Position numbers and translations under genes: made by a program. Shown one piece after another: positions 1 through 43,663 of a stretch of DNA of 43,663 bases. The notes under the pieces were generated by a model. That model was not told the DNA's origin. It did no database searches and saw nothing but the letters and a program-made list of their open reading frames with translations. Numbering within the stretch: the first letter of the stretch is position 1; the number at the start of each line of letters is the position of its first letter. Source of the DNA: a bacterium (GTDB lineage Bacteria > Cyanobacteriota > Vampirovibrionia > Gastranaerophilales > Gastranaerophilaceae); NCBI GenBank assembly GCA_017471365.1, contig JAFUUC010000021.1, positions 1-43,663 of the forward strand, written 5' to 3'.

Positions 1-448
1 AATAATTAGCCAGGCAAAAGTTCCAACACCGGTAAGTTGTAGTGATTATATAGGTAAATCCGGCTACGAAGCAATCAAAAGCTGCTACTACAATAACAAT
101 AATGACTACTGGGTAGGAGCCATGGTAGAGTGTAAAAATCAGGGTGGCAGATTACCAAACGCCTCTGAACTGGCTAAAATTGCTCAGGCAATATACAATG
201 ACAACTCAATCAGCGAATCGGAAGATTACAACGAAACAGACCCAACAACAAACGAATGGGATAAATCTATCACAGCCAAACTGGGCATAGAAGACTCCGC
301 TTCGTGGTTCGGCCTTTGGGGTGTCCTCGAGGACGACTCGGGCAGTGCGTGGTACCACAACTTCGGCAGTTCGAGTACGGCTTGGTACCACGGCTACGGT
401 CGCGGCAGCGTTCGCACCACTATCCGTGTTGTTTGCGTAGCGGATTAA
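1..448 (+). CDS. Pilin-like protein with hypervariable C-terminus, 5' partial
   Basis: The reading frame is open from base 2, so this is the last 148 codons of a gene that begins outside the window. It matches the C-terminal part of the complete prepilin-like protein at 6427-7563 (shared DYWVGA, GG.LP.A.EL, LW motifs) and is very close to the right-end copy at 43089-43663. The fold is probably C-type-lectin-like, as judged from the Gly-Gly-x-Leu-Pro, Trp and terminal Val-Cys-Val pattern; that is inference. The last 41 codons before the conserved Cys (311-433) are GC-rich and differ strongly from the right-end copy, while the sequences on both sides are almost identical. The gene's stop codon overlaps the stop of the convergent aminotransferase gene by 3 nt. 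The likely role is a surface-exposed, possibly diversified pseudopilin or pilus-tip protein. Confidence 0.8.
   Translation, partial: IISQAKVPTPVSCSDYIGKSGYEAIKSCYYNNNNDYWVGAMVECKNQGGRLPNASELAKIAQAIYNDNSISESEDYNETDPTTNEWDKSITAKLGIEDSASWFGLWGVLEDDSGSAWYHNFGSSSTAWYHGYGRGSVRTTIRVVCVAD
311..433 (+). other. Candidate diversity-generating-retroelement variable region
   Basis: Forty-one codons between a conserved Ser-Trp-Phe and the terminal Cys-Val-Ala-Asp. Aligned with 43104-43223, about 23 of 40 residues differ (for example Gly/Tyr, Val/Asp, His/Arg, Tyr/Arg, His/Cys). Fixed Leu-Trp, Trp, Asn-Phe, Ser-Ser and Trp positions remain between them. Most variable codons end in C or T, and replacements are at first and second positions, as expected when AAC/AAT codons of a template are adenine-mutagenised. 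Several C/T third-base differences show that the two copies are not from one identical template. No reverse transcriptase or template repeat was found in the window. Confidence 0.55.
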
Positions 449-6426: not shown

Positions 6427-7563
6427 ATGAAAAAATCACACATGCCACCACTTGCCTCTAAAGCAGGTTTTACTCTCGCAGAGGTCCTGATCACCCTTGC
6501 AATCATCGGCGTAGTCACAGCGTTGACTCTGCCAACATTGATCGCAAAAGTGAATGAAAAAGTCGACGGTAATCAGAAAAAAGTCACTGAAGCTAAATTA
6601 ATTCAAGGACTTAACATGCTCGACTTACATGGAGGGATTAACAACACCTATAGTAGTACTGCTGAATTTGTTGAAGAACTATCTAAATACATGAAGATCA
6701 CAAAAATATGTGACGGTACTAATTCAACGTTTAGTGAATGTATTCCATATAGTGAAATAACATACAACAACGGTGCGGAAGATAAAACTGTTGAAATTAC
6801 TAAACTAAACACAGCAGATGCATTAGGACTCGGAACAGTAACTGATGAAGAAGAATTTATGGCACCAGTAGCAATGGTATTAGGTGACGGTACTCCTATG
6901 TTTCTTACTTATAATAAGAAATGTATTTCAGATCCTGATAGTATAAAATCTGATAACAAAAAGATACATAGTTGTGTGGACGGACTGTATGACTTAAATG
7001 GTAGCCGCATGCCAAATAAAATAGGTAAAGATTTGACTGCTATGAATAAAGCTTCAATTACTATCGCCGAAGGACCTGCGGTATTAGCGACTGTTGGTGA
7101 TTATAAAATAATTAAACAGTTAGACACACCACCGGCAATGGATTGTTCTAAGTACTTAGGAAACTCCAAGTATCCGGAGATCGAACACTGCCCATATGAA
7201 GGAGAAACCGATTACTGGGTAGGAGCGTTGGTAACGTGTAAAGAAATGGGTGGTCACTTACCAAGTACAGCCGAGCTGACAAATATTGCGGTGGAAGTAT
7301 TTCCTAAAATTAATGTTAAAGGCGGTGATACTTACACATCTGGAAGTGTGACATGGGATGAAGAAATGGCGAATAAAATTAGTCCAGATGCTCCTTTAGA
7401 TATCCATTTATGGAGTTCTAGTGAATATTCTAGCGATAGTACAAGAAGTTTGACTAGATGTTTTCTCGCAAGTTCAACTATGTTTTCTGGTACTATGGAA
7501 AGTCATGTAACAAGAAATATTAGTGATTCAACACTTGGGTATATTTGTCTGAGTGATAATTAA
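6427..7563 (+). CDS. Prepilin-like protein with C-terminal lectin-like domain
   Basis: A 378-residue type IV pilin-like or pseudopilin protein. Residues 1-14 form a prepilin leader, cleavage is expected at Gly14-Phe15 of AGFTLAE, Glu19 is the conserved Glu5 of the mature protein, and a hydrophobic helix runs to about residue 35. The prepilin peptidase and assembly machinery are not in the window. The C-terminal 140 residues match the partial genes at both window ends (DYWVGALV, GGHLPSTAEL, LWSSSEY). Here the C-terminus is AT-rich and ordinary in codon use, so it shows no sign of the hypervariable segment of its paralogs. AGGAGA lies 6 nt before the ATG. Confidence 0.88.
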   Translation: MKKSHMPPLASKAGFTLAEVLITLAIIGVVTALTLPTLIAKVNEKVDGNQKKVTEAKLIQGLNMLDLHGGINNTYSSTAEFVEELSKYMKITKICDGTNSTFSECIPYSEITYNNGAEDKTVEITKLNTADALGLGTVTDEEEFMAPVAMVLGDGTPMFLTYNKKCISDPDSIKSDNKKIHSCVDGLYDLNGSRMPNKIGKDLTAMNKASITIAEGPAVLATVGDYKIIKQLDTPPAMDCSKYLGNSKYPEIEHCPYEGETDYWVGALVTCKEMGGHLPSTAELTNIAVEVFPKINVKGGDTYTSGSVTWDEEMANKISPDAPLDIHLWSSSEYSSDSTRSLTRCFLASSTMFSGTMESHVTRNISDSTLGYICLSDN

Positions 7564-15357: not shown

Positions 15358-15948
15358 ATGAGAATTGCTATTGTCGGAAATATAGCAAGTGGAAAATCGG
15401 AAGTTGAAAAAATTATTTCTTCTTTAAATTTCCCTGTATTAGATACAGATAAGGTTGCTCATAAATTACTTGATAATTCAATTGAAATTCAAGATGAATT
15501 CCAAAATTTCGATGTTTTTGAACGTAATAAAGTCTCTCGTGAAAAACTTGGCAAAATAGTTTTTTCAGATAAAAAAATGAAGAAAAAACTTGAAAATATT
15601 TTACATCCTAAAATTAGGGTCGAAATAAATAATTTTTTAAATAAAAATTACAATAAAATGGCATTTGTTTCTGTTCCGCTTTTGTTTGAAGCCGGAATGG
15701 AAGATCTGTTTGATACTATTATTTTTGTGTATGCAGATGACACAATACGCTTGCAACGATTGATTACCCGCAATGGTTATACCCGTGATTACGCAATCCA
15801 AAGAATAAATTCACAGCAAAATCAGGAAGAAAAAATACGCAAATCCGATTTTGTTATTTATAATGATTCAACACTTGAAGAATTGAATAAGAATGTTGCT
15901 AAAATTCTTAAACAGCTTCAAGAGAATCATTTTCCATCTGATTTTTGA
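15358..15948 (+). CDS. coaE: Dephospho-CoA kinase
   Basis: A 196-residue kinase for the last step of coenzyme A synthesis (dephospho-CoA + ATP). The P-loop is GNIASGKS (7-14), a variant of the usual GxxGSGKS. The DTD motif (LDTDKVAHKLL), HPKIR and the FVSVPLLFEAG lid segment are all there. AGAGG precedes the ATG at 15358. Its last 41 nt overlap the 3' end of the convergent ABC transporter gene. Confidence 0.93.
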   Translation: MRIAIVGNIASGKSEVEKIISSLNFPVLDTDKVAHKLLDNSIEIQDEFQNFDVFERNKVSREKLGKIVFSDKKMKKKLENILHPKIRVEINNFLNKNYNKMAFVSVPLLFEAGMEDLFDTIIFVYADDTIRLQRLITRNGYTRDYAIQRINSQQNQEEKIRKSDFVIYNDSTLEELNKNVAKILKQLQENHFPSDF

Positions 15949-17740
15949 ATTGCATTTCATAAAGGTGTTTATAAGCACCTTCTGGAATTTGGATTAATTG
16001 TTCATGAGTTCCGAGTTCAACCAGATTTCCGTCATTAATAACAGCAATTCTATTTGCGTTATTAATAGTTGAAAGTCTATGTGCAATTACAAAAACCGTT
16101 TTATTTTGCATAAGGTTGTTTAATGCCTTTTGAACAATAGCTTCGGATTCATTATCGAGTGCTGAGGTAGCTTCATCTAAAATTACAATAGGAGCATCTT
16201 TAATCATTGCTCTTGCAATTGCAACTCTTTGTCTTTGCCCTCCTGATAAAGAAGCACCTCTTTCTCCAACGTAGGTGTTTATTCCGTTTTCAAGATGATT
16301 TATAAATTCATCAAGATGTGCCAGTTTTATTACTCGTTCTAAGTCAGCATCATTCGCATTCTGATTGCCCATAAGAATATTTTCTTTAATAGTACCTGAG
16401 AATAGGTAATTATCCTGAAAAACAAACGAAATGTTGCTCCTCAATGAATTTATATCGAATTCTCTTATATCAATTCCATCAATTTTTATCGCACCATATT
16501 GAACATCGTAAAAACGAGGCAGCAAGTTTACTATAGTACTTTTACCGCCTCCAGAGTTTCCAACAAGAGCAATAGTTTCACCTTTATCAATATGCAGATT
16601 AAAATTATTTAACACAGGAGTATTTTGTTCATATTCAAAAGTAACACCCTCATAATCAATACCGGAATTTAATCTATCAAGTTTTATTGCATTATTTTTA
16701 TTTATAATTTGCGGTTCAAGATCGAAAAGTTCAAATACTCTGCTCATTGCAACAAAAGTCGTTTGCAAATCAGTCAAAGTTCGTCCAAGATCTTTTACAG
16801 GCTTATATAAAAGTAATAATGATGTTATAAATGAAGCAAAACTCCCAGCAGTCATTTGCTCGCTTATAATTAAGTGGTTCCCGTAAAACATTACAATAGC
16901 GATACCTATTGAACAAATAAAATACATTATTGGCGACATCCAACCAACTCTTTTTGTTAATGAAATTGTTAAATCAAATTGCGTTTTAATTTGATTTTCA
17001 AATTTTTCATTTTGAAGTTGCTGCAAATTATATGCATTAACAATTTTGTTACCGGCAAAGGTCTCGTTAAAATTAGTGGTCATATCACCGCCAACAATCA
17101 TATTAGCGTTAGATACTTTTTTAATTTTTTTTCTAATAAAAACAACCGGTGTAATAGCAATTGCCATAATTGTAATGCCTATAAATGCAAGTTTCCACGA
17201 GTTATAAAGTAGTACTGTTACCAGTCCTAATATTCCACATCCTGTCATTACTATTGTTTTAAATGTGTTTATTATATTTTTGGAGGCTGTTTCAGGGTCG
17301 GTAAAGAATCTTGTAAGCACTATTCCTGAAGAATTTACATCGTAAAATTTAGGATCAAGTGATGTTAGCTTTTTAAATAATTCAACTTTTAGTGAATTTG
17401 CAATTTTGTTTCCTGTCCAATCAGTCAAATAATTATTCAAATATTTTAAAATCCCTTGTGTAACTGCAAAAAGGACTATACCAAAAGGGATTACAAGAGC
17501 CAAAGTATTTTGTTCCACTGACAACCCGAAGAAATTAAATGTTCTTCCATTGATTACGCAATCCATATACGGTTTCAGGGCATAAGCTACGACACCATCT
17601 AAAAGTCCCAGTGGTACTGCTATAATTAGATTTAAAATAATTCTACCAATATGTGGCTTTATAAATGGAAAAATTTTACTAACCAAATATTTGTACTCAA
17701 AAGCATTTTTTGATGATGTTTTAGTTAACTTGTAATCCAT
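15908..17740 (-). CDS. MsbA-like ABC exporter (fused membrane and ATPase domains)
   Basis: A 610-residue half-transporter working as a homodimer in the inner membrane. Six helices occupy the N-terminal 330 residues. The ATPase has Walker A GNSGGGKST, Q-loop FVFQDNYLF, signature LSGGQRQRVAIARA, Walker B IVILDEATSALD and His in VIAHRLST. MsbA-like lipid A or lipid export is the closest guess; a peptide or drug exporter is possible. I choose the ATG at 17740 because GGAGA lies 9 nt before it; an in-frame GTG 9 nt upstream would leave no room for that site. Confidence 0.88.
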   Translation of the reverse strand: MDYKLTKTSSKNAFEYKYLVSKIFPFIKPHIGRIILNLIIAVPLGLLDGVVAYALKPYMDCVINGRTFNFFGLSVEQNTLALVIPFGIVLFAVTQGILKYLNNYLTDWTGNKIANSLKVELFKKLTSLDPKFYDVNSSGIVLTRFFTDPETASKNIINTFKTIVMTGCGILGLVTVLLYNSWKLAFIGITIMAIAITPVVFIRKKIKKVSNANMIVGGDMTTNFNETFAGNKIVNAYNLQQLQNEKFENQIKTQFDLTISLTKRVGWMSPIMYFICSIGIAIVMFYGNHLIISEQMTAGSFASFITSLLLLYKPVKDLGRTLTDLQTTFVAMSRVFELFDLEPQIINKNNAIKLDRLNSGIDYEGVTFEYEQNTPVLNNFNLHIDKGETIALVGNSGGGKSTIVNLLPRFYDVQYGAIKIDGIDIREFDINSLRSNISFVFQDNYLFSGTIKENILMGNQNANDADLERVIKLAHLDEFINHLENGINTYVGERGASLSGGQRQRVAIARAMIKDAPIVILDEATSALDNESEAIVQKALNNLMQNKTVFVIAHRLSTINNANRIAVINDGNLVELGTHEQLIQIPEGAYKHLYEMQFKNQMENDSLEAV

Positions 17741-17853
17741 AATGTACACTCTCCAGTCTATGGCACTGATTATTGCACAAATTAAGATATTTTACAAATA
17801 AAAAACTGTTATTTTAATATTATCGTGTTACAATATTAAGAAAGCGGAGTCAT

Positions 17854-18768
17854 ATGATGAAAAAATACTTTATTTTACTAATAACTATCGCATTTATATC
17901 CTCTTGTTGTGCTTTTGCTGCAACGAAGTATAAAGTTAATACTTCGGGAGTTGTAAAAACAGGTGGAAATGTAATTTCATCCCCTTCAAATGCAGTGAAT
18001 CAAAATTTTTATAATAATTATTCAGCACAAAGTTATGTATCTTCAAATATTGTTAATGCAAACCCTGTTGGAACAGTGGAAATTGTTATGGATTTTTCCG
18101 GCAGTATGGCAAATTGGATAGGGGTAGCAAAACGCAGTATGTTATCAATTGTTGCACAAATTTCACCTTCTACCAACTTAGGTTTTAGGGTTTTCGGGCA
18201 TGACAATTATGGTCACAATCCGTCGAATGTAGCTAATGTAGGAGAAGTTCAACAGATTGTTAAAAACGGTAAAAAACTTAAAGTTATAACTCAGGCAAGT
18301 CCTATAGGTTCAACGACAGGAGTCTGTGCTGCGACTCAGCAAGTAGCACCGATTGCACCGGCGAATGCTGCTTCTATAATTTCAGGTATGAACACCGTAA
18401 ATTTAGGCGGAGCGACTCCTTTGGTTTATGCACTTGAAAGAACTGTAAATAGCGATTTTGCGGGACTTGATAATGTTTCCCCTAAAAAAATTGTTTTGAT
18501 AACAGATGGGGGAGAAAATTGTGGGGGAGATCCTTGTGAATTTGCAAAACGGCTTATGCAAAAAAGATCAGATGTCCATATAGACGTAGTATTGGTATCT
18601 TCATCTTCAAAAGCCTTGAGTTGTCTTGCTTCAACAACTGGTGGACACTTTTATAATATAAATAATCTTGCCGATTTCTCAAATACAATGACACAGTCTA
18701 TTCAGTCTCAACCTACGGTTGCACCTATTCAAGTGCCAGAACAAAATTATGAATTTATAAAGGACTAG
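17854..18768 (+). CDS. Secreted von Willebrand factor A (VWA) domain protein
   Basis: A 304-residue exported protein. Residues 1-23 form a signal peptide; either cleavage after AFA or a lipobox-like ISSC would fit, so it may be a lipoprotein. The VWA domain has the metal-ion site DFSGSM (near residue 77), a central Thr in GGATPL, and ITDGGENCGGDPCEF. Such domains bind proteins in a Mg-dependent way. It is convergent with the TonB-like gene, sharing a 4-nt CTAG in which both stop codons lie. Position suggests a role with the neighbouring envelope operon. GGAG precedes the tandem ATGATG; either ATG may be used. Confidence 0.85.
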   Translation: MMKKYFILLITIAFISSCCAFAATKYKVNTSGVVKTGGNVISSPSNAVNQNFYNNYSAQSYVSSNIVNANPVGTVEIVMDFSGSMANWIGVAKRSMLSIVAQISPSTNLGFRVFGHDNYGHNPSNVANVGEVQQIVKNGKKLKVITQASPIGSTTGVCAATQQVAPIAPANAASIISGMNTVNLGGATPLVYALERTVNSDFAGLDNVSPKKIVLITDGGENCGGDPCEFAKRLMQKRSDVHIDVVLVSSSSKALSCLASTTGGHFYNINNLADFSNTMTQSIQSQPTVAPIQVPEQNYEFIKD

Positions 18769-19910
18769 TTTAATTTTATTTCAAAATTCCCATTATAAAA
18801 TCTTACATTTAAACGTAGGGTTTCGTTGTTGTATGCTTTAGGTGGCGGGTTGTAACTTGGGGTGGACATCATTGCCTTGTATACGGCATCATTGAGAGTT
18901 ATATTAGAAGATTGTTTCGCAAATGTTCGATTTGTTAATTGACCATTATTGTTAACTTTAAACGTGATTGCACAATCCCCGTCACCTACCACGCTTGCAA
19001 AATCGATTTTCTTACCAATAACATTCCTTAATGAAACTTTGTAGTTTGCAAGTTCTTGCTTTGCAGCGGCAGCATTTAAAGCATTCGTTGCTTGAGAAGT
19101 TGTTGCAGGTTGAGGAGCAGAAGGTAAAACAGAAGTATTTGAAGATATTGGTTTCGTTGTTATATTGGTTGTTATTTGCGTTGTTTGTTTAGGAATTATT
19201 GTTGGACTTGCTGTTTGAACAGGATTTTTTGTAATATTTGAAATAGTATTTGTATTTTGTTTTGGTGTTACAAGTTGTGGAGTATTAACTTTGACAGGCT
19301 GGTTACTTTTTGCATTCTCAGGTGTTGTGGTATTTACGGATGTTGTTTTGACTTGTACTTGTTTTGCCTGAGTTTGTTGTGGTTTTGAGGTTATAGTTTT
19401 GCTTTGATTCGCTGCGGGAGCATCGTGTACATAAACGATTTGAGGTTGAATAATGACCTTTGGTTCAGAGGGCTGTATCTGGGCTTGCGTTTTATTCTGA
19501 ATCTGAGATTCTTCCTGTAAAACAGGGGCTGGGTGATTGTCAAGTTCAATTCCTATTGTCGTGTTATCCCAAAAACTATCTATAGGTGGAATATTTTTAT
19601 TTATTTTTTCAGGTTTTGAACCATCTTTAGCAACTTCTGTTTTAGGGTTTCCGATAAAAAATATTATAACAAAAGATAAAATCAGACAAAAAATAAATAT
19701 ACAAAAGGATAATGGGTTAATACCTTCGGTCTTTTTCTTTTTCGGCGGTTGTAATTTCGGAATATTATGAGTTTGCTTAATTTCTTGTTGTGTTTTTGTT
19801 TTTTGTTCAGGTTCTTCTTTTTTTATGACAATTTGAAAAATATCATTTCCGCAATCACAATAGTCAGGTTTTATCTCATATTCAGTTCCACATTCGCTGC
19901 ATTTATACAT
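18765..19910 (-). CDS. Zinc-ribbon, membrane-anchored protein with TonB-like C-terminus
   Basis: A 381-residue protein with an unusual order of parts. A cytoplasmic zinc ribbon comes first (Cys4, Cys7, Cys18, Cys20), then one membrane helix (about 66-87), then a long Gln/Thr/Pro/Lys-rich linker (90-280). The last 90 residues are a TonB-C-like domain (YKVSLRNVIG, GDCAITFKVNNNGQL). It would reach from the cytoplasm across the periplasm. It is the last gene of the operon, its ATG overlapping the previous stop as TAATG, which indicates translational coupling. I cannot name a specific partner receptor, and the assignment of the last domain is by pattern only. Confidence 0.72.
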   Translation of the reverse strand: MYKCSECGTEYEIKPDYCDCGNDIFQIVIKKEEPEQKTKTQQEIKQTHNIPKLQPPKKKKTEGINPLSFCIFIFCLILSFVIIFFIGNPKTEVAKDGSKPEKINKNIPPIDSFWDNTTIGIELDNHPAPVLQEESQIQNKTQAQIQPSEPKVIIQPQIVYVHDAPAANQSKTITSKPQQTQAKQVQVKTTSVNTTTPENAKSNQPVKVNTPQLVTPKQNTNTISNITKNPVQTASPTIIPKQTTQITTNITTKPISSNTSVLPSAPQPATTSQATNALNAAAAKQELANYKVSLRNVIGKKIDFASVVGDGDCAITFKVNNNGQLTNRTFAKQSSNITLNDAVYKAMMSTPSYNPPPKAYNNETLRLNVRFYNGNFEIKLN

Positions 19911-20821
19911 TATTTTTTAATCCTTTCAGTATCATTAAAATCTTGGGGGGTACTAAGTTTTGTATTTGCTGCAATTTTCCATCCACCAACAACAATAGTT
20001 GAAGTTCGGTTTGAGCCAGATGGAAAATTCAGAATGGAGCGTCCTTGGTAACTTCTGATTACCGGAGCCATATATTGAATTGCATAAGGTGTATATTTCG
20101 ATGTGTCAGACCAAGTTTGAACATTGGTAATTTTCCCGAATTTGTCCACGTTAAAGGTGAAACGGAAAATAGTCCCCGATGGTACTGCCGGAAGTTTTAC
20201 ATCCTGCATAATTTTATTTTGTAAATCAGAACGCCATTTGTTCCAGGCAATTTCTTCCTCTTGTGCAGTTAAAATTTTTACTGGTTGAGTCTTGGTTGTT
20301 TGAAAAGTTCCCGAATTGATTATCTTTTGAGTTGTTGTTTGTGGTGCAACTTTTGTTTGCTGCTGAATTGGTTTATCCTGTATGGTGGTTTGTGAAACAT
20401 TATTTTGAACAGTCCGTTTAGCAATTTCTTTAACATCAATTCCGTAATCTGTCTGCGTTGTTTTTGGTACAGAAGTTGTTTTTGTCGTTTTAACCTGTTG
20501 TTGTGGTTGAACTTTAGTTGATTGAGTTTCTACTTTTACTGTTGGTGTCGATTCTTTATAAACGTGTATAATTTTCGGAGCGAGTTCAGTTGTTTGAGTC
20601 TGCACCTGTGTAACACTGGTTTCAAGCGGCTGAGGCTGAATTTGAACCGGTCTTGACGGTAAAGTTTTTTGTTCGACAGTAACTTCTTTTTGCGGAGTAA
20701 TTTGATAATCGGAATTGTAAACCAATACTGACTTATGCATTTGAGGTTTCATCACACAAATGCACGAAGTCACTATAATCGTTATTAAAATTAATATTGG
20801 TAAAAATATCTTGTATATCAT
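19910..20821 (-). CDS. TonB-like envelope-spanning protein
   Basis: A 303-residue protein with an N-terminal membrane helix (about 5-25, KIFLPILILITIIV), a Gln/Thr/Lys-rich linker and a C-terminal TonB-C-like domain (WNKWRSDLQNKIM, FRFTFNVDKFGKI). It resembles the next gene's product, without the zinc ribbon. Just after the helix it has ICVMKPQMHK, also found in the small membrane protein at 24112-24378 (ICVTKPVMHK). I start it at the ATG at 20821, which overlaps the upstream stop as TAATG. The longer frame to 20857 would run into the upstream gene. Confidence 0.7.
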   Translation of the reverse strand: MIYKIFLPILILITIIVTSCICVMKPQMHKSVLVYNSDYQITPQKEVTVEQKTLPSRPVQIQPQPLETSVTQVQTQTTELAPKIIHVYKESTPTVKVETQSTKVQPQQQVKTTKTTSVPKTTQTDYGIDVKEIAKRTVQNNVSQTTIQDKPIQQQTKVAPQTTTQKIINSGTFQTTKTQPVKILTAQEEEIAWNKWRSDLQNKIMQDVKLPAVPSGTIFRFTFNVDKFGKITNVQTWSDTSKYTPYAIQYMAPVIRSYQGRSILNFPSGSNRTSTIVVGGWKIAANTKLSTPQDFNDTERIKK

Positions 20822-22419
20822 TAGTCTCTGTCTATTTTGGAAATTAATTCTTCGCAAGCAAAAGATTCAAATCGGGTTTGACTGAGCATGTAAGTTTCGG
20901 CAATAAGTAATGCTGTCGGTACCAAAGCCGCAACCGCACTCAAAAGCATACCACTTAAATCCTGACCGATTTCTTGCATAAAATACGAAACGTTCATCGA
21001 AAATTCAATAATAACGATTGCGACAGCAATTATAAAAGATCGCCTCATCTCAGAATCAATTTTTTTGACACCTTCAAGTCCGTAAATTTCTACACCGTGT
21101 TGAATGTAATTGCTAAATCCATCTTGTTTTAAAACATTTGAAGCTTGTATTTTTTTGTTAGATAAAAAGCCGTTTACAAATGAGAAAAATGCAAAAATAA
21201 TCAAAAATGTCGCTAAAACAAGAAAAATAGGACTAAATCTTAAACCGGAAATCCTTATCCAACCAGCGGCTTCCGGAAAACAAGAAGCCAAAGTGTTTGA
21301 AACACCATAAGCCAAAAATGGTGCCGTTAATATCCCAAGAAGAATTTCACCTACAGATTTTATTTGTAATGTAAATAATTTATCTTTAATATTATTTATT
21401 TTAGTTGTACTTAAAGTATTCACAAATCTTTCGATCCATAATTGGTATTCTTTTATAACGTGTTCAAAATCTTTGCGATATTCATATACATCAAGCTCTT
21501 TACGAGTTTCAAGGTTTGTATTTTTGAAATATCCGCAAGCAAGTGCAAGTGTCAAAGCTGTACCCACAAAAAATAGCGAAACAAACACCGCAAATAAAGG
21601 AAACGCCTTTGGTGTTAAATAATAAAGAACATTGATAATATAAATTGCAATATAGAAAAGGAAAGAAAGCATTATCATGAATTTTTCAGCTATTCGTGTC
21701 GTTGTTGTATCTTCTCCAATTTTATTTTGCAAATAAAGAAACACACCTTGTTTTAAAACAAGACCTACACCAAATATAACTGCCGCATAAACAAATATAA
21801 GTTTCATATTTGTAGGCATTTGAATTACGCTGCCAGCATCACTTAGAGGCAAGCCGGTAAGATAATTAGATACACCGAAAGCACAAACCAATGAAGCTAA
21901 AAACATTGCTATATGCAAAAATATCCCTGCTTTTGAGTTCATCGAAATTTTATGTTTCAGCAAATTAATTTGAGCGGCAATTTCATTTATAGTTGCGACA
22001 CGTGCTTCTTCGATTTCGTTTTTCCTTTTTTCAATTTTTATTCTTGCCGCAGCATTAACATCATTCCCATATATTGCACGTATATCTTCTTCTGTCATGT
22101 TTTCTTCAAACAGGGTTGCATTTGATGCATTACCAAGAACTTTTATTGTAATAAATTCATCCGAACCTTCTATCATAATTTTGCAAACTTTATCAATTTC
22201 AAGACTTGCTGGTAGTGGTTTTCCCTTAAATAGAAAACGTTTATTACCAAATTGATTCAATAAAACACAACGATTAGTTTTGCTGTCATATTGAACAGCA
22301 AGCATAAAATTGAAATCTACGTTAACTTTAAAATCGAATCCGTCTTTTGAACTGATATTAATCAATTCTTTGTCTGCAAATGTTTTTTCGTTATTTTTTG
22401 AACTAATAGTAAAAGCCAT
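20821..22419 (-). CDS. Eight-helix membrane protein of unknown family
   Basis: A 532-residue protein I cannot assign. Residues 1-105 are soluble and beta-rich (NRCVLLNQFGNKRF, KVCKIMIEGSDEFITIKVLG), possibly an FHA-like domain. Residues 110-160 are a charged helix. Eight membrane helices follow, four at about 165-300 and four at about 355-510, separated by a cytoplasm-like helical segment (KELDVYEYRKDFEHVI). This 4+4 pattern could be an internal duplication. Position beside VirB10-like and TonB-like proteins suggests the inner-membrane core of an envelope complex, possibly an energising channel; that is inference. AAAGGAG precedes the ATG. Confidence 0.75.
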   Translation of the reverse strand: MAFTISSKNNEKTFADKELINISSKDGFDFKVNVDFNFMLAVQYDSKTNRCVLLNQFGNKRFLFKGKPLPASLEIDKVCKIMIEGSDEFITIKVLGNASNATLFEENMTEEDIRAIYGNDVNAAARIKIEKRKNEIEEARVATINEIAAQINLLKHKISMNSKAGIFLHIAMFLASLVCAFGVSNYLTGLPLSDAGSVIQMPTNMKLIFVYAAVIFGVGLVLKQGVFLYLQNKIGEDTTTTRIAEKFMIMLSFLFYIAIYIINVLYYLTPKAFPLFAVFVSLFFVGTALTLALACGYFKNTNLETRKELDVYEYRKDFEHVIKEYQLWIERFVNTLSTTKINNIKDKLFTLQIKSVGEILLGILTAPFLAYGVSNTLASCFPEAAGWIRISGLRFSPIFLVLATFLIIFAFFSFVNGFLSNKKIQASNVLKQDGFSNYIQHGVEIYGLEGVKKIDSEMRRSFIIAVAIVIIEFSMNVSYFMQEIGQDLSGMLLSAVAALVPTALLIAETYMLSQTRFESFACEELISKIDRD

Positions 22420-22431
22420 TATTTTCTCCTT

Positions 22432-23076
22432 TTATCGTCCTATTGCCTTTAAAAATCTTCGGTTAGCCTTATCCGCACCAACTTTATTTGCTATTATAAG
22501 TTTTGTTTCTCCTAAAACCGGATTTAATTTAGTTTTAACAATATCCAATTTTTCCGGTGATGCATAAATAAACATCATAGCAAGCTCCGGAATGTATTGT
22601 TTTACTTTTTCAATATTTTTAGGTAATGTTTGCCAGTTAATTTGTTTTGAGATGTCTCCCTCATTAACCAAATCGCCAACAACTACAACCGAAGGAACAT
22701 AACCCTCTTTCTTCATTGTCAAAGCATGGTCTAAAGCTTTTTTTATCCCCTCACCATACGAACTTGCTTCCGTGTCTTTGGAAAATTCTTCAAAAACTTT
22801 TGAAATATTTGAACTATCTGCCGCAGAACCCTCGTAAATTAAATAAGAACTTGAAGATGATTTAATTATTTTTACCTCATCTTCTGGATCCAAGACAGCA
22901 CATAAAGATTTAATGTACTTTACTTCTTGTAAGTTTTCCGATGGTTTTATAACAAATATTACCGCGGACTTATGAAAATCATCAAGTTTAATATTTTTGC
23001 CAAAAACGAACAATAACTTGCCTACAAGAGCAGTAACTAAAATTAATAATCCAATAATAACAAGTCTTTTGTTCAT
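22432..23076 (-). CDS. Membrane-anchored VWA-like protein
   Basis: A 214-residue protein with one N-terminal membrane helix (RLVIIGLLILVTALVGKLLF) followed by a soluble domain with alternating strands and helices. FVIKPSEN, SYGEGIKKALDHALTMKK and VVVVGDLVNEGD sit where a VWA domain has its metal-site loops, but the DxSxS motif is incomplete, so metal binding is doubtful. I start it at ATG 23076, which has AAGGTGAAA just upstream and lies 7 nt after the VirB10-like stop; the longer frame overlaps that gene. It is the second VWA-like protein of the locus. Confidence 0.65.
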   Translation of the reverse strand: MNKRLVIIGLLILVTALVGKLLFVFGKNIKLDDFHKSAVIFVIKPSENLQEVKYIKSLCAVLDPEDEVKIIKSSSSSYLIYEGSAADSSNISKVFEEFSKDTEASSYGEGIKKALDHALTMKKEGYVPSVVVVGDLVNEGDISKQINWQTLPKNIEKVKQYIPELAMMFIYASPEKLDIVKTKLNPVLGETKLIIANKVGADKANRRFLKAIGR

Positions 23077-23083
23077 TTTCACC

Positions 23084-24115
23084 TTAATAACTAATTGTAA
23101 CATTCAACGGCTGAGTTAATGTCAACTCTAATTCCGTAAAAGAAGGGATTTCCGCATCGATTCCTCTTTCGGCGGTTGTACCGATCAAAGCACTACCTGC
23201 ACCAATTCCTGCTCCAATTGCGGCAGTTGAACCTACATTCCCAGATCCAATTGCTCCAATTAACAGTCCTGCCAAAGCTCCAATTGCCGCCCCGGCAACT
23301 ACACTGCCGGCTGATCTTGCGATTTTACCTTCATTCGTTACCGTAAAATCAATTTCTTCGGTTGAAATATTATAAACTTTATTTTCCGGTGTAACGAGCT
23401 GGTTAAAGTCTATTACAACCCTTCCGTTTCTTGAACCGTAGCTTGCAGGACGAGCCTTAATCAAAGTCCCATATACAACACTTCCTTGTGGTGCAATAAC
23501 ATGACCATTATAAGTCCAATTTTTTGTCAAAACAGCAGTAATACGATCACCTTTTGCTGCTGTTGCGGTATTTATAGGATTTTGTAAGTATGTTGCAATT
23601 TTTGAACCTTCAGAAACTTGTGCAACATAACCTTGTAATGAATTACCCTGATTGTAGATATTTGTTGTTGTTTGATTATACACTACAGGTTTTGGATCCT
23701 CAAAAGTATAACGATTTGTGTTCGCAACAGGGTTAAGAGTGTTTTGAGCCAAATTGTCATATACTCCTATAATATTTTGATTTAAAGATTGTTCGGTAAC
23801 AATTCCCGCTTTTTTTATACTTTTTAGTATTTTTTTGTTTAACTTTTTATTCGTGTTTGAACTGTAGTAATAAAATAGGTTACTACCGCTTTGTTGTAAA
23901 ATTACAATGGCATATTCCGAACTGTCATTTGAATTTATTCCGTAATAAGGGTTTTGTTTTTGAATTTTAAAATTCTGGTCGGAATATGATGAAACTATAA
24001 GAGGTTGAATTGCTGTAGTTGTTGTATTTTTCAAGTAGTACAATTCACTAAAAGCAAAACAAGCATTTGTTGATATATAAAACAGTGTAATTATTAAAGA
24101 TATTATCTTTTTCAT
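23084..24115 (-). CDS. VirB10/TrbI-like exported protein with glycine zipper
   Basis: A 343-residue protein. A signal peptide covers residues 1-21 (ISTNACFA). The central part (about 165-260) resembles the TrbI/VirB10 beta-barrel domain of type IV secretion: KGDRITAVLTKNW, GSVVYGTL, NGRVVIDFNQLVTPENKV. A glycine-zipper membrane segment follows (270-315, AGAAIGALAGLLIGAIG). VirB10 links inner and outer membranes, but no VirB4, VirB8, VirB9 or coupling ATPase is present, so this is not a standard type IV system. Its ATG overlaps the preceding gene's stop as ATGA. Confidence 0.75.
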   Translation of the reverse strand: MKKIISLIITLFYISTNACFAFSELYYLKNTTTTAIQPLIVSSYSDQNFKIQKQNPYYGINSNDSSEYAIVILQQSGSNLFYYYSSNTNKKLNKKILKSIKKAGIVTEQSLNQNIIGVYDNLAQNTLNPVANTNRYTFEDPKPVVYNQTTTNIYNQGNSLQGYVAQVSEGSKIATYLQNPINTATAAKGDRITAVLTKNWTYNGHVIAPQGSVVYGTLIKARPASYGSRNGRVVIDFNQLVTPENKVYNISTEEIDFTVTNEGKIARSAGSVVAGAAIGALAGLLIGAIGSGNVGSTAAIGAGIGAGSALIGTTAERGIDAEIPSFTELELTLTQPLNVTISY

Positions 24116-24378
24116 TTTTGAACTTTGTCCTCCAAGACCGTTGTTGTAGTTTGTTTTGTTGTAGTCACTGATCCATCAGTATTAATTTTTATAAGATATT
24201 CAATAATATTTATAGAAAAAGGCTTGTGCATAACCGGCTTTGTAACACAAATACCAATTGTTGAACAAACAAAAATTATCGCAAAAACAAATCCGACAAT
24301 TTTGAGGTCAAATTTTGTAAATTTAAGTACTAATAAAACTGCCAAAATTACTATTAATACAACAATTGCAAAAACCAT
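24112..24378 (-). CDS. Small two-helix membrane protein, first gene of the envelope operon
   Basis: An 88-residue protein with two hydrophobic segments (about 2-20 and 27-47) and a Thr-rich polar tail. After the second segment it has ICVTKPVMHK, nearly the same as in the TonB-like protein at 19910-20821, so the two may share an ancestor or an assembly contact. AAAGGA lies 9 nt before the ATG. It is the first of six genes that are overlapping or nearly so. The family is not recognised. Confidence 0.65.
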   Translation of the reverse strand: MVFAIVVLIVILAVLLVLKFTKFDLKIVGFVFAIIFVCSTIGICVTKPVMHKPFSINIIEYLIKINTDGSVTTTKQTTTTVLEDKVQK

Positions 24379-24593: not shown

Positions 24594-25913
24594 ATGAAGC
24601 TTCACATGCAGATTTTGATAGCATTGGGTTTGGGAATTAAGAGAAACTGGCATATTTTCTTTGGTATTATTGCCGGAGTCCTTATAGGTATTTTCTTACA
24701 TTCTCATCCGAATGTTCTTATTGATAATCTTTTAACGTTTTTTGGACAGGTCTTTATAAGGTTAATTCAAATGGTTGTTATACCGCTTGTTGTATCGGCG
24801 ATAATCATTGGTATTACAAGTATTGGTGATAACAAACAACTTGGTAAATTCGGGTCTAAAATGATCATTTACTATGGAATTTTAACTACAATTGCTGTTA
24901 TTATCGGTGGGGCATTGGCGTTACTTATACAGCCGGGTATTGGAGCATCTCAGTATATTTCCTCTAACATTGCAAACGAGGTTCAGTCATCTGTTTCTAT
25001 TGCAATGCAGCAACAGGGTAATATATTGAATTTGATTTTAGGCTTTATTCCTAACAATCCTGTTGAAGCTTTTGCTTCAGGCAATATGGTTCCTATTATT
25101 TTGTTTGTTGTTTTGTTTGCTCTTGCTCTTGCGAAAGTTGGAGATGTAAACAGACCAATTGTTTCATTTTTTGAATCTGTTTTTGCTGCAACCATGAAAA
25201 TTACAGATTGGATAATGTTATTTGCTGCTCCAGGTATTTTTGCTTTGACAGCCAGTGCAATTGCAAGTTTTGGTGTTTTGATTTTCGCACCGATTGCAAA
25301 GTACTTAATGGTATTATTACTGGGTTTTGCAATTCAAATGTTTATGATTTATCCGATTTTCTTAAGGTGTTTTTCAAAAGTTTCATTTCCAATGTTATTT
25401 TCTGCTATTGCGGAAGCTGTTATGGTTGCTTTCGGAACGGCAAGTTCTGCTGCAACATTGCCTTTAACTATTGCTTGTTGTGAAAAACGCGGCATTTCCC
25501 ACAAAATTTCTAGCTTTGTGTTACCTCTTGGTGCTACATTGAATTTTGACGGAACGGCTTTATTGCAAACTGTTGCGGTAATTTTCTTAGCACAAGCGTA
25601 TCAGGTTCCTTTAGACTTATTCCTTGTTATTCAGATCGCTTTATTGGCTATCATTGCATCAAGCACTTGTGCAGGAATCCCTGGCGGTGGTTTAATCACA
25701 ATCGCACTAATTTTGAATGGTATGGGGTTAAGTCCGGAACAACTTGTTGCAGGTTTTGCGTTCTTGTTCACAATTGAAAGAATTACGGATATGTTAAGAA
25801 CGGTACTTAATGTAACTTCTGATGCAGTTGTTGCTGCGGCTATTGCTGACAATGAAAATGAAATAAATTATGATTTGTTAAATAATCCGCAAGCTTACGA
25901 AGAAATTGCATAG
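24594..25913 (+). CDS. Dicarboxylate/amino acid:cation symporter (DAACS family)
   Basis: A 439-residue secondary transporter of the GltP/DctA type that imports glutamate, aspartate or C4-dicarboxylates with Na+ or H+. Conserved parts are RLIQMVVIPLVVSAI (helix 2-3), the serine-rich reentrant loop FGTASSAATLPLT, GATLNFDGTALLQ, and the second reentrant loop SSTCAGIPGGGL. Substrate within the family cannot be fixed by eye. It has its own promoter and is followed by a strong hairpin, so it is probably monocistronic. Confidence 0.93.
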   Translation: MKLHMQILIALGLGIKRNWHIFFGIIAGVLIGIFLHSHPNVLIDNLLTFFGQVFIRLIQMVVIPLVVSAIIIGITSIGDNKQLGKFGSKMIIYYGILTTIAVIIGGALALLIQPGIGASQYISSNIANEVQSSVSIAMQQQGNILNLILGFIPNNPVEAFASGNMVPIILFVVLFALALAKVGDVNRPIVSFFESVFAATMKITDWIMLFAAPGIFALTASAIASFGVLIFAPIAKYLMVLLLGFAIQMFMIYPIFLRCFSKVSFPMLFSAIAEAVMVAFGTASSAATLPLTIACCEKRGISHKISSFVLPLGATLNFDGTALLQTVAVIFLAQAYQVPLDLFLVIQIALLAIIASSTCAGIPGGGLITIALILNGMGLSPEQLVAGFAFLFTIERITDMLRTVLNVTSDAVVAAAIADNENEINYDLLNNPQAYEEIA

Positions 25914-39725: not shown

Positions 39726-41447
39726 ATGTTAAATAAAGTTGAATTAGGTAGTGTAAATATTAAAAACAAGCCCCAATCAGTTGTAACATCAGCAGAAAAT
39801 GTTAGTTTTACTGGTATGGGTAGAGTTGCACGTGATTTGGGTAACTTGGCATTAAAGGGTATTCAAAAGTGTGAAGAACACCCTATGATTAACGTTGCTG
39901 TTTTAGATTTATCTACTGCTATTTTACCTAGAACTTTTTTTGAAACATTTATCGGATCAAAGCAAAAAGATGAAAATGGTGAAGAACAAAAACGCAGATT
40001 AAATGTTTTGGGTGGCTTTGAAGCTTTTAGGAGAGAATCTTCCGGATTGTTAATAAACTGTATAATTCCAAGTTTTATAGTAATAGGTGCCGCAAAGCTT
40101 TTAAATAGACCGGTTATGGGTATGTTTAACAAGTCTAATTTGACAAGAAGCTGGGCAAATAGTGATACTATCCAGCAAATAGAAAAATATTACACTAAAG
40201 CTGAAGGTGTAACAAAAGAAGATCAGATTTACAACGCCTTAAAAGCAATGTTTAACGATATTGAAGGCGTTGATGGTGACATTGATAACGGCGGCTTGAA
40301 ACAGTTTAGAGAAATTTTTGCAAATGATACAACTTATGATGAAACTTTAAAAAATCTTGCCCAAAATATTACTTCAGATAAGCCTGATAAAAATGCTGCT
40401 TCAAAACTTTATAAATATATGGTTGAAAAGAGCGGTATTTCTGAAAACATAAGATTTAACGGTGAAAAAGGATTTTTCTCGAGCAATTTAAAACATCTTT
40501 GCGAAAGCGTTGAGGAAATTCTACACGGTTCTATTCAGGAAGGCTTAGAAGTTAAATCTACTAATTTAACCAAATACCTATCAAAAGCAAAAACTTTGGT
40601 TAATGCCAAGAGTTTGGCGGGACTAGGTATAATTATACCTCTTGCAATTTCTGCACAACCTATTAACCGTTGGATTACCCATAAGATGGCTGGTAAGAAG
40701 GGTGCTCCTATTTATAATGATGATGAAGAAAGAATTTTGAATCATCTGGAAAAGAAAAAACTCACTGCGGAAAAATTCTTCGCTGTACCTTTGATGTGGG
40801 GCGTAGCGGGACTTTCAATGTTAATGGACAGACCGTCACTAAGGATGTTCCAGTTCAAGAATATTTTCCCTACTATGGATCAGGCAAGAATAATTTCAGC
40901 AGCGACTTTTTCTAGTCGTATTGCAGCATCGGAAGATTCAAATGAACTTCAAGAAAATACAATTCGCGATATTGCTACGTTTTCAAGCTTTTATTTCCTT
41001 GGAGACTATGCAGCAAAAGGAATTGCTACTTGGCTTGAAAAATTCAATAAAGACGGTATCAAGCTTATAAACAGACTAAAATCTCCAAAAGAAGATGCAA
41101 ATGTATTTGAAAGATTTTGGATATGGGCAAAACACACTAAAATGAAATCAACAGATGAACTTAAAGCTATAAAGGCTGCTGACGGACTTTCAGAAGCAGC
41201 TAATATTGCCATCAGACAAAAAGCCCGAAATTTACGAGCTGCTTGCCAGCTTGGAAATATCGCATTTTCACTGCTTTCTCTTGGTGTATTTATACCGCTT
41301 TATACTAGAACTCAAACAAATAAGAAAAAACAAATGGAACTTGAAAAAAATGTTTTAAAACAGATGCAATATAACGAAACATTTACTCATATGCAAAATA
41401 ACTCCCCTACATTCAAATCATTTTTTGATAACAATAAGGTACGATAG
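39726..41447 (+). CDS. Lineage-specific membrane protein, first of an adjacent paralog pair
   Basis: A 573-residue protein I cannot assign. The N-terminus has NVSFTG (Phe28). Hydrophobic stretches lie near residues 100-122, 295-312, 350-365 and 517-540, so it is probably membrane-associated. Shared with the next gene: LPRT near 60, RRESSG, SAQPIN near 315, PTMDQARIISAATFSSRIAA and NELQENTIRDI. The pair thus arose by duplication. Its TAG stop abuts the next ATG without a gap, so both are translated from one mRNA. Confidence 0.8.
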   Translation: MLNKVELGSVNIKNKPQSVVTSAENVSFTGMGRVARDLGNLALKGIQKCEEHPMINVAVLDLSTAILPRTFFETFIGSKQKDENGEEQKRRLNVLGGFEAFRRESSGLLINCIIPSFIVIGAAKLLNRPVMGMFNKSNLTRSWANSDTIQQIEKYYTKAEGVTKEDQIYNALKAMFNDIEGVDGDIDNGGLKQFREIFANDTTYDETLKNLAQNITSDKPDKNAASKLYKYMVEKSGISENIRFNGEKGFFSSNLKHLCESVEEILHGSIQEGLEVKSTNLTKYLSKAKTLVNAKSLAGLGIIIPLAISAQPINRWITHKMAGKKGAPIYNDDEERILNHLEKKKLTAEKFFAVPLMWGVAGLSMLMDRPSLRMFQFKNIFPTMDQARIISAATFSSRIAASEDSNELQENTIRDIATFSSFYFLGDYAAKGIATWLEKFNKDGIKLINRLKSPKEDANVFERFWIWAKHTKMKSTDELKAIKAADGLSEAANIAIRQKARNLRAACQLGNIAFSLLSLGVFIPLYTRTQTNKKKQMELEKNVLKQMQYNETFTHMQNNSPTFKSFFDNNKVR

Positions 41448-43085
41448 ATGAAAATAGACAATAGTGTGCAATTAAATACCCCTCTCAAATACAAAAAAAC
41501 TCCAAATTTTACCGGAGCTGAAGCTGTTTTGCGGTTTTTAGACACAAATCAAGCTTGGGGAGCGAACGCTGTTGACTTTTTCTGTATGGTATTACCTAGA
41601 ACTCTTACCGATTTTTCCAGAGGTTCAGATGCAGGATGGGAAACAGCACGTCGTGAAAGCATGGGAACCATTAATGATTCTTCTGTTGGTCTATATGGTA
41701 CTGCTGCCGGACTTGCTCTTGCCATGGGTATTAACAAGGCATTTGCTCTTGGTAATAATGACATAAAAGCCGCATCTATTTTTGCAGACGCCGAAACACT
41801 TGATATGATGGGTAAAATTTGGGCTGAAAAAGTTCATTCCAACTCTGCAAATCCTCTTAGAGAACACCTTATAGAAGTACTGAGCAGATATGAAGCACTT
41901 AGTCCAAATACTAACGGTCAGTGGGTAAAATTTGCTCAAGCTGATATTGAAAAAGCCGTGGATATTCTCGAACGAGAAATTCGTGCTAATGGAAATAAAA
42001 TTAGCAAAGAAGCACTTAACAATGCTAAGAACATTTTGTTATCATCTAATAATGTCGAAAATAACTTTAGAATTGTTGCAGAAGCGGGAAAACCACTTCA
42101 TTCTTCTCGTTACACGCTCGATTCTATATTAGAAAATACATACAAATTAACTAAGACATTTACAAAAGAAAAAGTTCTCGAAGCATTCCGGAATGCCGTT
42201 GATTTTGAAAGCAATACGTTCTTGAAATTAATGAAAAGGATGAATCTCCAGCGTTCACTGATTGGGGTTGGCATTGCTACTGCTGTTGGAATGTCGACTC
42301 AGCCTATAAATATGTACCTTACAAAAAGAAAAACCGGTTCAGAAGGTTTTGTCGGCGGGGGCGAAAAAGATAAATCCGTAAAATTTAAATTTGAGAAATT
42401 CTTGACATCAGTATTATTTGGTGCCGGTGTTCTTGCAACAATCGGTCATCCGAAAAACTTGATCAAAAATCTTCAATTCAAAGGGTTCACTCCTACAATT
42501 AATCAGCTTAAATTCATATACGGTTTGACAATTATATCGAGATTTTTAGCGGCTCGAAACGAAAATGAACTTCGAGAATCTACTATTAAAGATGTATTAG
42601 GATTTGCCAACTGGTTAATATTAGGCAACTTTGTACAAAAACTTGTTGCTCAAGCCTTCGATAAAACTCTTATCAAACGCGATGGCGAAGGCATGCTAAA
42701 ATGGATACAAAACTCCGTACTCAAAACGAGGGATGAAGTATTACACGCTCATCTTGGCGAAAAAGCATTCAAAGATGGCAAAGCATTGAGTTTCAATGAA
42801 ATGATGAGAGCCGTAAAACACAACAAAGCAGCTAAAAAACAATTAGGAATCCTTACTCTGGCTCAAGTTGCCGGCTACGTATATTCAGGTCTTGTACTTG
42901 GCAGAGGAATTCCAAAACTAAATATTTATATGACTAAAAAACGTCTGGCTAAAGAAGAAGAAGCTAAAAAAGCGGCTGCGAAAGTAAAAAACCAAGTTGA
43001 TAGCAACATGTTAACTCCGCAAAACCGCGAATTTTTAGCCCAAAAGAGTTTTACCAGCAATACCCTAACCTCTATGGTCAGGTAA
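41448..43085 (+). CDS. Lineage-specific membrane protein, second of the paralog pair
   Basis: A 545-residue paralog of the preceding gene. PNFTGAEAV (Phe21) near the start, VLPRTL near 50, ARRESMG, STQPINMYLT near 285, PTINQLKFIYGLTIISRFLA and NELRESTIKDV match its neighbour in order. Hydrophobic parts lie near 80-95, 273-287 and 318-330. The C-terminus is basic and Ala/Lys-rich. AAGGTA precedes the ATG inside the previous gene. Function unknown; it ends 3 nt before the convergent pilin-like gene. Confidence 0.8.
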   Translation: MKIDNSVQLNTPLKYKKTPNFTGAEAVLRFLDTNQAWGANAVDFFCMVLPRTLTDFSRGSDAGWETARRESMGTINDSSVGLYGTAAGLALAMGINKAFALGNNDIKAASIFADAETLDMMGKIWAEKVHSNSANPLREHLIEVLSRYEALSPNTNGQWVKFAQADIEKAVDILEREIRANGNKISKEALNNAKNILLSSNNVENNFRIVAEAGKPLHSSRYTLDSILENTYKLTKTFTKEKVLEAFRNAVDFESNTFLKLMKRMNLQRSLIGVGIATAVGMSTQPINMYLTKRKTGSEGFVGGGEKDKSVKFKFEKFLTSVLFGAGVLATIGHPKNLIKNLQFKGFTPTINQLKFIYGLTIISRFLAARNENELRESTIKDVLGFANWLILGNFVQKLVAQAFDKTLIKRDGEGMLKWIQNSVLKTRDEVLHAHLGEKAFKDGKALSFNEMMRAVKHNKAAKKQLGILTLAQVAGYVYSGLVLGRGIPKLNIYMTKKRLAKEEEAKKAAAKVKNQVDSNMLTPQNREFLAQKSFTSNTLTSMVR

Positions 43086-43088
43086 TGC

Positions 43089-43663
43089 TTAATCCGCTAC
43101 ACAAATAACGTGAATAACGCTATCACTGCGGCTACCAAGATTGCAACGCCACTCCGTGTAAGAACTACTGAAATTGCGGTCCCACGAACCGTTCGAGTCG
43201 TTTTCGAGGTCACTCCAAAGGTAGAACCACGAAGCGGAGTCCTCTATGCCCAGTTTTGCAGTAATGGATTTGTCCCAGGTTAATCCGTTTTTGTAATTGT
43301 ATTCTTCCGATTCGCTGATTGAATTGTCGTTGTATATTGCCTGAGCTATATTTGCAAGTTCACTTGCATTTGGTAATCTGCCGCCTTGATTCTTACACTC
43401 AACCATAGCTCCTACCCAGTAGTCATTGTTGTTGTTGAATTCGCATGATTTGATTGCTTCGTAGCCGGATTTTCCAATGTAGTCACTACAACTTACCGGC
43501 GTTGGAACTTTAGCCTGGCTAATTATCTTAACTCCACCTATCTCTATATAAGAATCTTCAAGTTTTGCTCCATTGAAAGAAATAAGGTCGTTTCTTGTGT
43601 GTTCATCGCCACCATACAAGTTTGGTTTTCTGGAGCCATTAAAGTCATAAATACCCGCTACAC
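43089..43663 (-). CDS. Pilin-like protein with hypervariable C-terminus, 5' partial
   Basis: The frame is open to the window edge, so the N-terminus is missing; the upstream codons read AGIYDFNGSRKPNLYGG, which matches the YDLNGSRMPN of the complete paralog at 6427-7563. A TTG at 43619 is internal and not a start. It carries the shared CSDYIGKSGYEAIKSC, NDYWVGAMVECKNQGGRLP and LGIEDSASWF. From there its last 40 codons before the conserved Cys differ sharply from the left-end copy, then both end in CVAD. The protein is probably an exported pseudopilin with a lectin-like head. Confidence 0.8.
   Translation of the reverse strand, partial: VAGIYDFNGSRKPNLYGGDEHTRNDLISFNGAKLEDSYIEIGGVKIISQAKVPTPVSCSDYIGKSGYEAIKSCEFNNNNDYWVGAMVECKNQGGRLPNASELANIAQAIYNDNSISESEEYNYKNGLTWDKSITAKLGIEDSASWFYLWSDLENDSNGSWDRNFSSSYTEWRCNLGSRSDSVIHVICVAD
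43104..43223 (-). other. Candidate variable region of the right-end pilin-like gene
   Basis: Forty codons that align to 311-433 with one codon less. Residues replaced are mostly encoded by NNC or NNT codons. Scaffold residues Leu-Trp, Trp, Asn-Phe, Ser-Ser, Trp, Gly and Val are kept. The bases just before it (conserved 31-nt block with one mismatch) and after it (last 12 coding bases identical) frame the variation sharply. Confidence 0.55.

Follow-up and report, generated by a model that had tools for sequence, protein, structure and literature searches.

We have found in the Gastranaerophilaceae a compact gene cluster which encodes a real, lineage-restricted system, apparently a variant of the TonB-type trans-envelope machines with a membrane core that belongs to no assigned family. 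The literature searches found no description of this gene set, nor any envelope study of gut Gastranaerophilaceae. The cluster is described here from the window, the whole stretch of 43,663 nt that was analysed, which is contig C18 of a 1.8-Mb Gastranaerophilaceae genome (the window genome, G000). According to the list of open reading frames (ORFs) of the window, it comprises six tightly coupled ORFs on the minus strand, in positions 18765-24378, and a convergent gene for a secreted VWA protein also belongs to it. The largest of the six products has an FHA-fold domain followed by eight transmembrane (TM) helices, and we call it FHA-8TM. The chances are about even that the set works as a trans-envelope coupling apparatus, similar to Ton/Tol or to the Agl-Glt gliding apparatus, on a different inner-membrane core.

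The known transducers of the TonB/TolA type are tied to a single motor family, MotA/TolQ/ExbB with a TolR/ExbD partner (PMC12204202, PMC5349195). If our reading is true, a conserved TonB/vWA system with another polytopic partner would mean that the inner and outer membranes can be coupled by more than one kind of machine. For the Gastranaerophilaceae, which are gut relatives of cyanobacteria, it would open a first access to their outer surface. An eight-helix core unlike any known motor may reveal a new mode of bacterial action on the outer surface, and with so few genes the set lends itself to heterologous expression and to structural study.

Conservation of the gene cluster

Gene order was studied in a sample of 80 loci from other genomes, in which some of the missing genes correspond to contig ends. 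The genes of the cluster in the window are:

24112..24378 (-): small two-helix protein, 88 aa; its gene precedes the VirB10-like gene in 45 of the 80 loci
23084..24115 (-): protein with a VirB10-like C-terminal domain (CTD), 343 aa; recognised by hhalign, a Gly-zipper and hydropathy
22432..23076 (-): VWA protein with one TM helix, 214 aa; Pfam VWA match in 30 of 37 family members; all-or-none presence with FHA-8TM
20821..22419 (-): FHA-8TM protein, 532 aa, the proposed platform or core; AlphaFold2 model, FHA fold
19910..20821 (-): TonB-like protein, 303 aa; TonB architecture, weak similarity to the TonB CTD
18765..19910 (-): zinc-ribbon TonB protein, 381 aa; Pfam TonB_2, hhalign, invariant Cys residues
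17854..18768 (+): convergent secreted VWA protein, 304 aa; Pfam VWA, 8.5e-7

A reading made earlier from the letters of the window (the sequence-only reading) had described the six-gene operon with its overlapping genes, and had counted two helices in the small protein, one in the VWA protein and eight in the polytopic protein. All of this is confirmed, as is its VWA label. The small-protein and VirB10-like genes overlap by 4 bases (ATGA); there are two TAATG overlaps, one between the FHA-8TM and TonB-like genes, the other between the TonB-like and zinc-ribbon TonB genes. For the VWA gene the most likely start is 23076 (MNKRLV...), 7 nt past the preceding stop codon, rather than 23103, since its relatives align with the same start. 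The FHA domain, the convergent gene and a shorter second copy of the operon on contig C109 of the window genome had gone unmentioned.

With the FHA-8TM gene as a reference, the TonB-like gene is found at position +1 in 79 of the 80 loci, the VWA gene at -1 in 74, the VirB10-like gene at -2 in 70 and the zinc-ribbon TonB gene at +2 in 67. The small two-helix gene occupies position -3 in 42 loci and the convergent secreted VWA gene position +3 in 34. Farther away most genes are unrelated, and the flanks vary among the loci. A gene order conserved in about 70-79 of the 80 loci, between flanks that vary, is far beyond chance; a neighbourhood without conservation would have refuted the proposal of the sequence-only reading by its own terms, and this did not happen. 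The family of the secreted VWA protein (c6) is present in 38 of the 80 loci, in 35 of them directly downstream and convergent. Its stop codon and that of the zinc-ribbon TonB gene overlap by 4 bases, tail to tail (CTAG in the window). The same overlap is found in 20 of these 35 loci, an unusual conservation for a pair of genes which do not form an operon.

We also compared a set of 30 near-complete genomes from the family. Of these, 10 have FHA-8TM, and each of the 10 also carries the VWA and zinc-ribbon TonB genes; the 20 genomes without FHA-8TM have neither, a contrast which is exaggerated by common descent. The losses are scattered across genera which also hold positive genomes (e.g. g29, g30, g33 and g36), and therefore these genes have been retained or lost together.

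The shorter operon on C109 has the order VWA-8TM-TonB-like and is found throughout the genus; its eight-helix protein is 39% identical to that of the window. One genome has the long and the short form side by side, and the most divergent genera have the arrangement VWA-8TM-zinc-ribbon TonB. A profile of the eight-helix protein matches 260 of the 383 genomes of the order and 101 of the 292 genomes of the phylum. Among the matches listed, all are in a single family except one incomplete genome of another family (G051), which may be a binning error. The system is found almost only in Gastranaerophilaceae. In a scan of viral contigs only one relative was found, and phages are therefore not the usual carriers of the set.

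The FHA-8TM protein and its putative partners

The AlphaFold2 model of FHA-8TM, built with 86 sequences, has a pLDDT of 84.6 and a pTM of 0.68. It shows three parts:

22132..22419 (-): N-terminal FHA-fold domain, residues 1-96, predicted to be cytoplasmic
21481..22053 (-): first four-helix unit, residues 123-313; long helix/TM1, beta-hairpin, TM2-TM4; GVSN and N263 motifs, invariant K223
20839..21408 (-): second four-helix unit, residues 338-527; TM5, beta-hairpin, TM6-TM8; GVSN and N-V-x-Y repeated, invariant E358, E472, N476 and E508

In the predicted model residues 1-96 match the FHA-1 domain of Rv1747 (Z 12.7, rmsd 2.2, 93 residues). The canonical Arg and Ser/His of the phosphothreonine-binding site are not apparent in the alignment. 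Genus g22 has stand-alone relatives of this domain, of about 100 aa (e.g. L184:1501-1800), and most of its genomes with such a relative have no full-length match to the eight-helix protein.

The membrane part is probably a duplicated four-helix unit, because in the model the same order of elements (a long helix, a beta-hairpin and three more helices) occurs twice, and the motifs GVSN (N185, N375) and N-V-x-Y (N263, N476) recur at equivalent places. The comparison of the profiles of both halves is suggestive (E 0.0025) and a pairwise repeat test is weak. K223, E358, E472, N476 and E508 are invariant in 86/86 sequences. From its position in the helix, E472 should lie in the middle of the membrane. 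No Pfam, NCBIfam or PADLOC model matched the protein, and a sequence search of the PDB gave nothing.

The two TonB proteins differ in the strength of their assignment. The zinc-ribbon TonB protein has a ribbon formed by C4, C7, C18 and C20 on the cytoplasmic side, a TM helix (69-87), a low-complexity linker and a TonB CTD (289-371). The four Cys are invariant. The label given in the sequence-only reading stands: the Pfam TonB_2 match (6.8e-5) is above the cut-off, and hhalign gives E 1.3e-8 to the TonB of the exb operon, an ordinary tonB-exbB-exbD-exbD operon of the same lineage. The TonB-like protein has an N-terminal TM helix, a linker rich in Pro, Thr and Gln, and a CTD with weak similarity to that of TonB. 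Here the architecture fits the label, whereas the homology of the domain is suggestive only: TonB is its top match in the PDB (E 0.43) and the profile link to canonical TonB is weak (P 5e-4).

Neither the TonB-like protein nor the small protein has a model in Pfam, NCBIfam or PADLOC. The small protein ends in a short Thr-rich tail; its second helix and its motif ICxxKPxMHKPF resemble the start of the TM helix of the TonB-like protein. Their common motif therefore suggests that both proteins may share a docking site.

As regards the VWA proteins, the metal ion-dependent adhesion site (MIDAS) is intact in 23/23 proteins of the short form and varies among those of the long form. The convergent secreted VWA protein has a signal peptide and an intact MIDAS (DFSGS), and the motif D[FY]SxS is kept in 38/38 of its relatives.

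The VirB10-like protein has a Sec signal peptide, a VirB10/TrbI-type domain in residues ~155-340 and a glycine-zipper hairpin. Hydropathy and inspection of the sequence indicate that it lacks the cytoplasmic and inner-membrane part of true VirB10. The label proposed earlier holds, as hhalign against eight conjugative VirB10/TrbI proteins gives E 1.1e-8 and P 95.6% over 160 columns which include the core of the domain. A sequence search of the PDB gave only low-complexity or chance matches. The window genome has at least six copies of VirB10-type domains, which also occur alone. A close relative resides in the exb operon of the same genomes (E 2.9e-32 by hhalign). In this lineage the domain would mark envelope partners, probably of the outer membrane, rather than secretion. 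The sequence-only reading had counted it as a part taken from type IV secretion, which is not supported, as in this lineage it occurs commonly as an envelope domain. SLH proteins with a VirB10/TrbI-like C-terminal domain are also present (L210:4254-5528 and L213:3142-4311), which suggests an envelope role of the domain.

Possible mechanism and comparison with known systems

The data establish the composition of the cluster, its gene order and the co-occurrence of its genes, together with the FHA fold of the predicted model and the TonB and VirB10 homologies; from these we infer the energisation, the topology of the outer-membrane parts and the output. In the mechanism which we propose, FHA-8TM would lie in the inner membrane as a platform or motor, possibly driven by ions through the invariant intramembrane charges E472, E508 and K223. 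Packed against it would be both TonB-like proteins, and with them the small protein, which would cross the peptidoglycan by long disordered linkers. The TM-anchored VWA protein would be a periplasmic adaptor, and the exported VirB10-like protein may form a docking ring or insert in the outer membrane. The secreted VWA protein would then be a periplasmic or surface client, or an adhesin. The likely output would be work done on the outer membrane or the surface, as force or as conformational change, either of the adhesion/motility type or for the display of surface proteins, rather than receptor-mediated import of nutrients.

The nearest working analogy is the Agl-Glt gliding apparatus, which combines FHA, TonB, a motor of the ExbB/ExbD type and VWA-adhesin parts (PMC3169522, PMC5349195, PMC12288465). 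As in this gliding and focal-adhesion apparatus of Myxococcus (GltG, GltJ, AglRQS, CglB), an FHA-bearing inner-membrane protein, transducers with a TonB CTD and a secreted VWA protein would here form one envelope-spanning set. GltJ carries a zinc ribbon, and the zinc-ribbon TonB protein has the same layout of ribbon, TM helix and TonB, a likeness of architecture only. The secreted VWA protein, with its MIDAS, may be a counterpart of the CglB adhesin; its gene is convergent and adjacent in 35/80 loci. However, GltG has FHA, TM and TonB CTD in one chain, whereas here the FHA domain is on FHA-8TM and the TonB CTDs are on other chains. The operon has no motor of the AglR/Q/S type, the trio of ExbB and two ExbD being elsewhere in the genome. 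TPR proteins and beta-barrels are lacking, with a VirB10-like protein instead.

A second partial precedent is found in the TM-anchored vWA proteins which have been proposed as force transducers (PMC12204202). They also have a vWA domain on a single TM helix and a gene beside a polytopic inner-membrane protein, without TolR. The differences are that here the neighbour, FHA-8TM, is not TolQ-like, that the TM helix of the VWA protein lacks both the TPH Asp and the SHLS His, and that the family is confined to one bacterial family. The sequence-only reading knew of no named system with this composition. No model that we searched covers the operon, and the profile searches do not assign all its genes to one known system, an outcome which by the terms of that reading would have refuted it; its novelty is tempered by these two precedents. 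We do not claim membership in Ton/Tol, type IV secretion systems (T4SS), Agl-Glt or the published vWA-TolQ family, because a defining feature of each was looked for and was lacking.

Several results weigh against a coupling apparatus. In the TM-anchored VWA protein of the window the DxSxS of the MIDAS is lost (KPSEN). In alignments, its TM segment and those of the TonB-like and zinc-ribbon TonB proteins have neither the proton-binding Asp of TolR/ExbD nor the SHLS His of TonB/TolA. No sequence similarity was found between FHA-8TM and MotA/TolQ/ExbB, either with Pfam or with hhalign (P 0.3-0.6 to ExbB). The second four-helix unit modelled alone (pLDDT 87.4) gave in Foldseek/VIA designed bundles and unrelated helical chains, with Z up to 9 and no clear match in the PDB; MotA/ExbB chains are not in these lists, which is no evidence of their absence. 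Finally, the cluster has no outer-membrane receptor. In a bolder form of the proposal, FHA-8TM would be an inner-membrane motor of a new class that has no relation to MotA/TolQ/ExbB; driven by ions, it would power transducers of the TonB and vWA types across the periplasm in Gastranaerophilaceae. We regard this as unlikely.

A passive envelope scaffold or anchor is also rather unlikely. FHA-8TM would then be an inner-membrane platform which is not energised, and the TonB-like and VWA proteins would serve as tethers to keep in place a VirB10-like ring of the outer membrane or a VWA adhesin of the surface. FHA-like domains are non-catalytic scaffolds in other envelope machines, e.g. YscD/PrgH of type III secretion systems, and one member of the FHA-8TM family weakly matches Yop-YscD_cpl in Pfam. 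The operon has no motor family, and FHA-8TM conserves few residues, for the most part structural ones (G, P, N, W). However, E472, E508, E358 and K223, invariant within membrane helices, exceed the needs of a scaffold, and CTDs of the TonB type are otherwise known from energised systems.

The system could also be an accessory of an ordinary Ton system, in which ExbB-ExbD-ExbD encoded elsewhere would energise the TonB-like proteins, FHA-8TM being a transporter or regulator alongside. ExbB and two ExbD are indeed present in 12/12 genomes tested, and the exb operon also holds a VirB10-type paralogue. We find this quite improbable: the TM helices lack the SHLS His by which canonical TonB binds ExbB, whereas the exb-operon TonB of the same lineage keeps the LHP motif (ISAILHP). 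Moreover, the core genes are kept or lost with FHA-8TM, whereas ExbB/ExbD are found in every genome tested. With TonB-ExbB-ExbD/TolA-TolQ-TolR the operon has in common transducers made of TM helix, linker and TonB CTD, the organisation as an operon, and a VirB10-type paralogue in the local tonB-exbBDD operon. It differs by the lack of ExbB, ExbD, TolQ and TolR, with FHA-8TM in place of the motor. A receptor-coupled Ton system was rejected: the window genome lacks the plug of TonB receptors (PF07715), as do 10/12 genomes tested, which agrees with the lack of receptors pointed out before.

In the window genome PF01618 and PF02472 match only on contig C66, next to TonB. The exb operon there (L204, G000:C66:838-5026) has counterparts in L205, L206 and L208. 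It is preceded by two VirB10-type or related exported proteins, and the genomes which have it are mostly without detectable TonB-receptor plugs.

Still less probable is a reduced exporter of the T4SS type, with the VirB10-like protein as outer-membrane channel and FHA-8TM as inner-membrane translocase. The significant profile match to the VirB10 CTD speaks for it; both domains have a hydrophobic insert. The other features disagree: VirB10-type domains also occur by themselves, in SLH fusions and in the exb operon; the VirB10-like protein is exported by a signal peptide and has no inner-membrane anchor; no VirB9 or VirB7 was seen beside its gene. VirB4 (PF03135) is absent in 12/12 genomes, in a search whose control detects it in Caulobacter, which confirms the lack of ATPases noted in the sequence-only reading. 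A T4SS identity was rejected on these grounds, the missing VirB4 and the exported protein without inner-membrane part. Anti-phage defence was also rejected, as the search for it gave only a TerY-like VWA at 0.01.

Other genes in the window

The cluster is flanked by a multi-helix ORF in 24594-25913 (+), which by eye looks like a dicarboxylate/glutamate symporter, and by an ABC exporter in 15908-17749 (-). Neither is conserved beside the cluster in other genomes. Two large adjacent ORFs in 39726-43085 (+), with 573 and 545 aa, are alike by eye and have no Pfam match; they are possibly lineage-specific.

The window also contains three paralogues, in positions 2-448 (+), 6427-7563 (+) and 43089-43661 (-). 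In the full-length paralogue the N-terminus is prepilin-like (GFTLAEVLITLAIIGVV), and both ends of the contig break inside genes of this group. Their lectin-like C-terminal tails differ at scattered residues, and in this they resemble the targets of diversity-generating retroelements.

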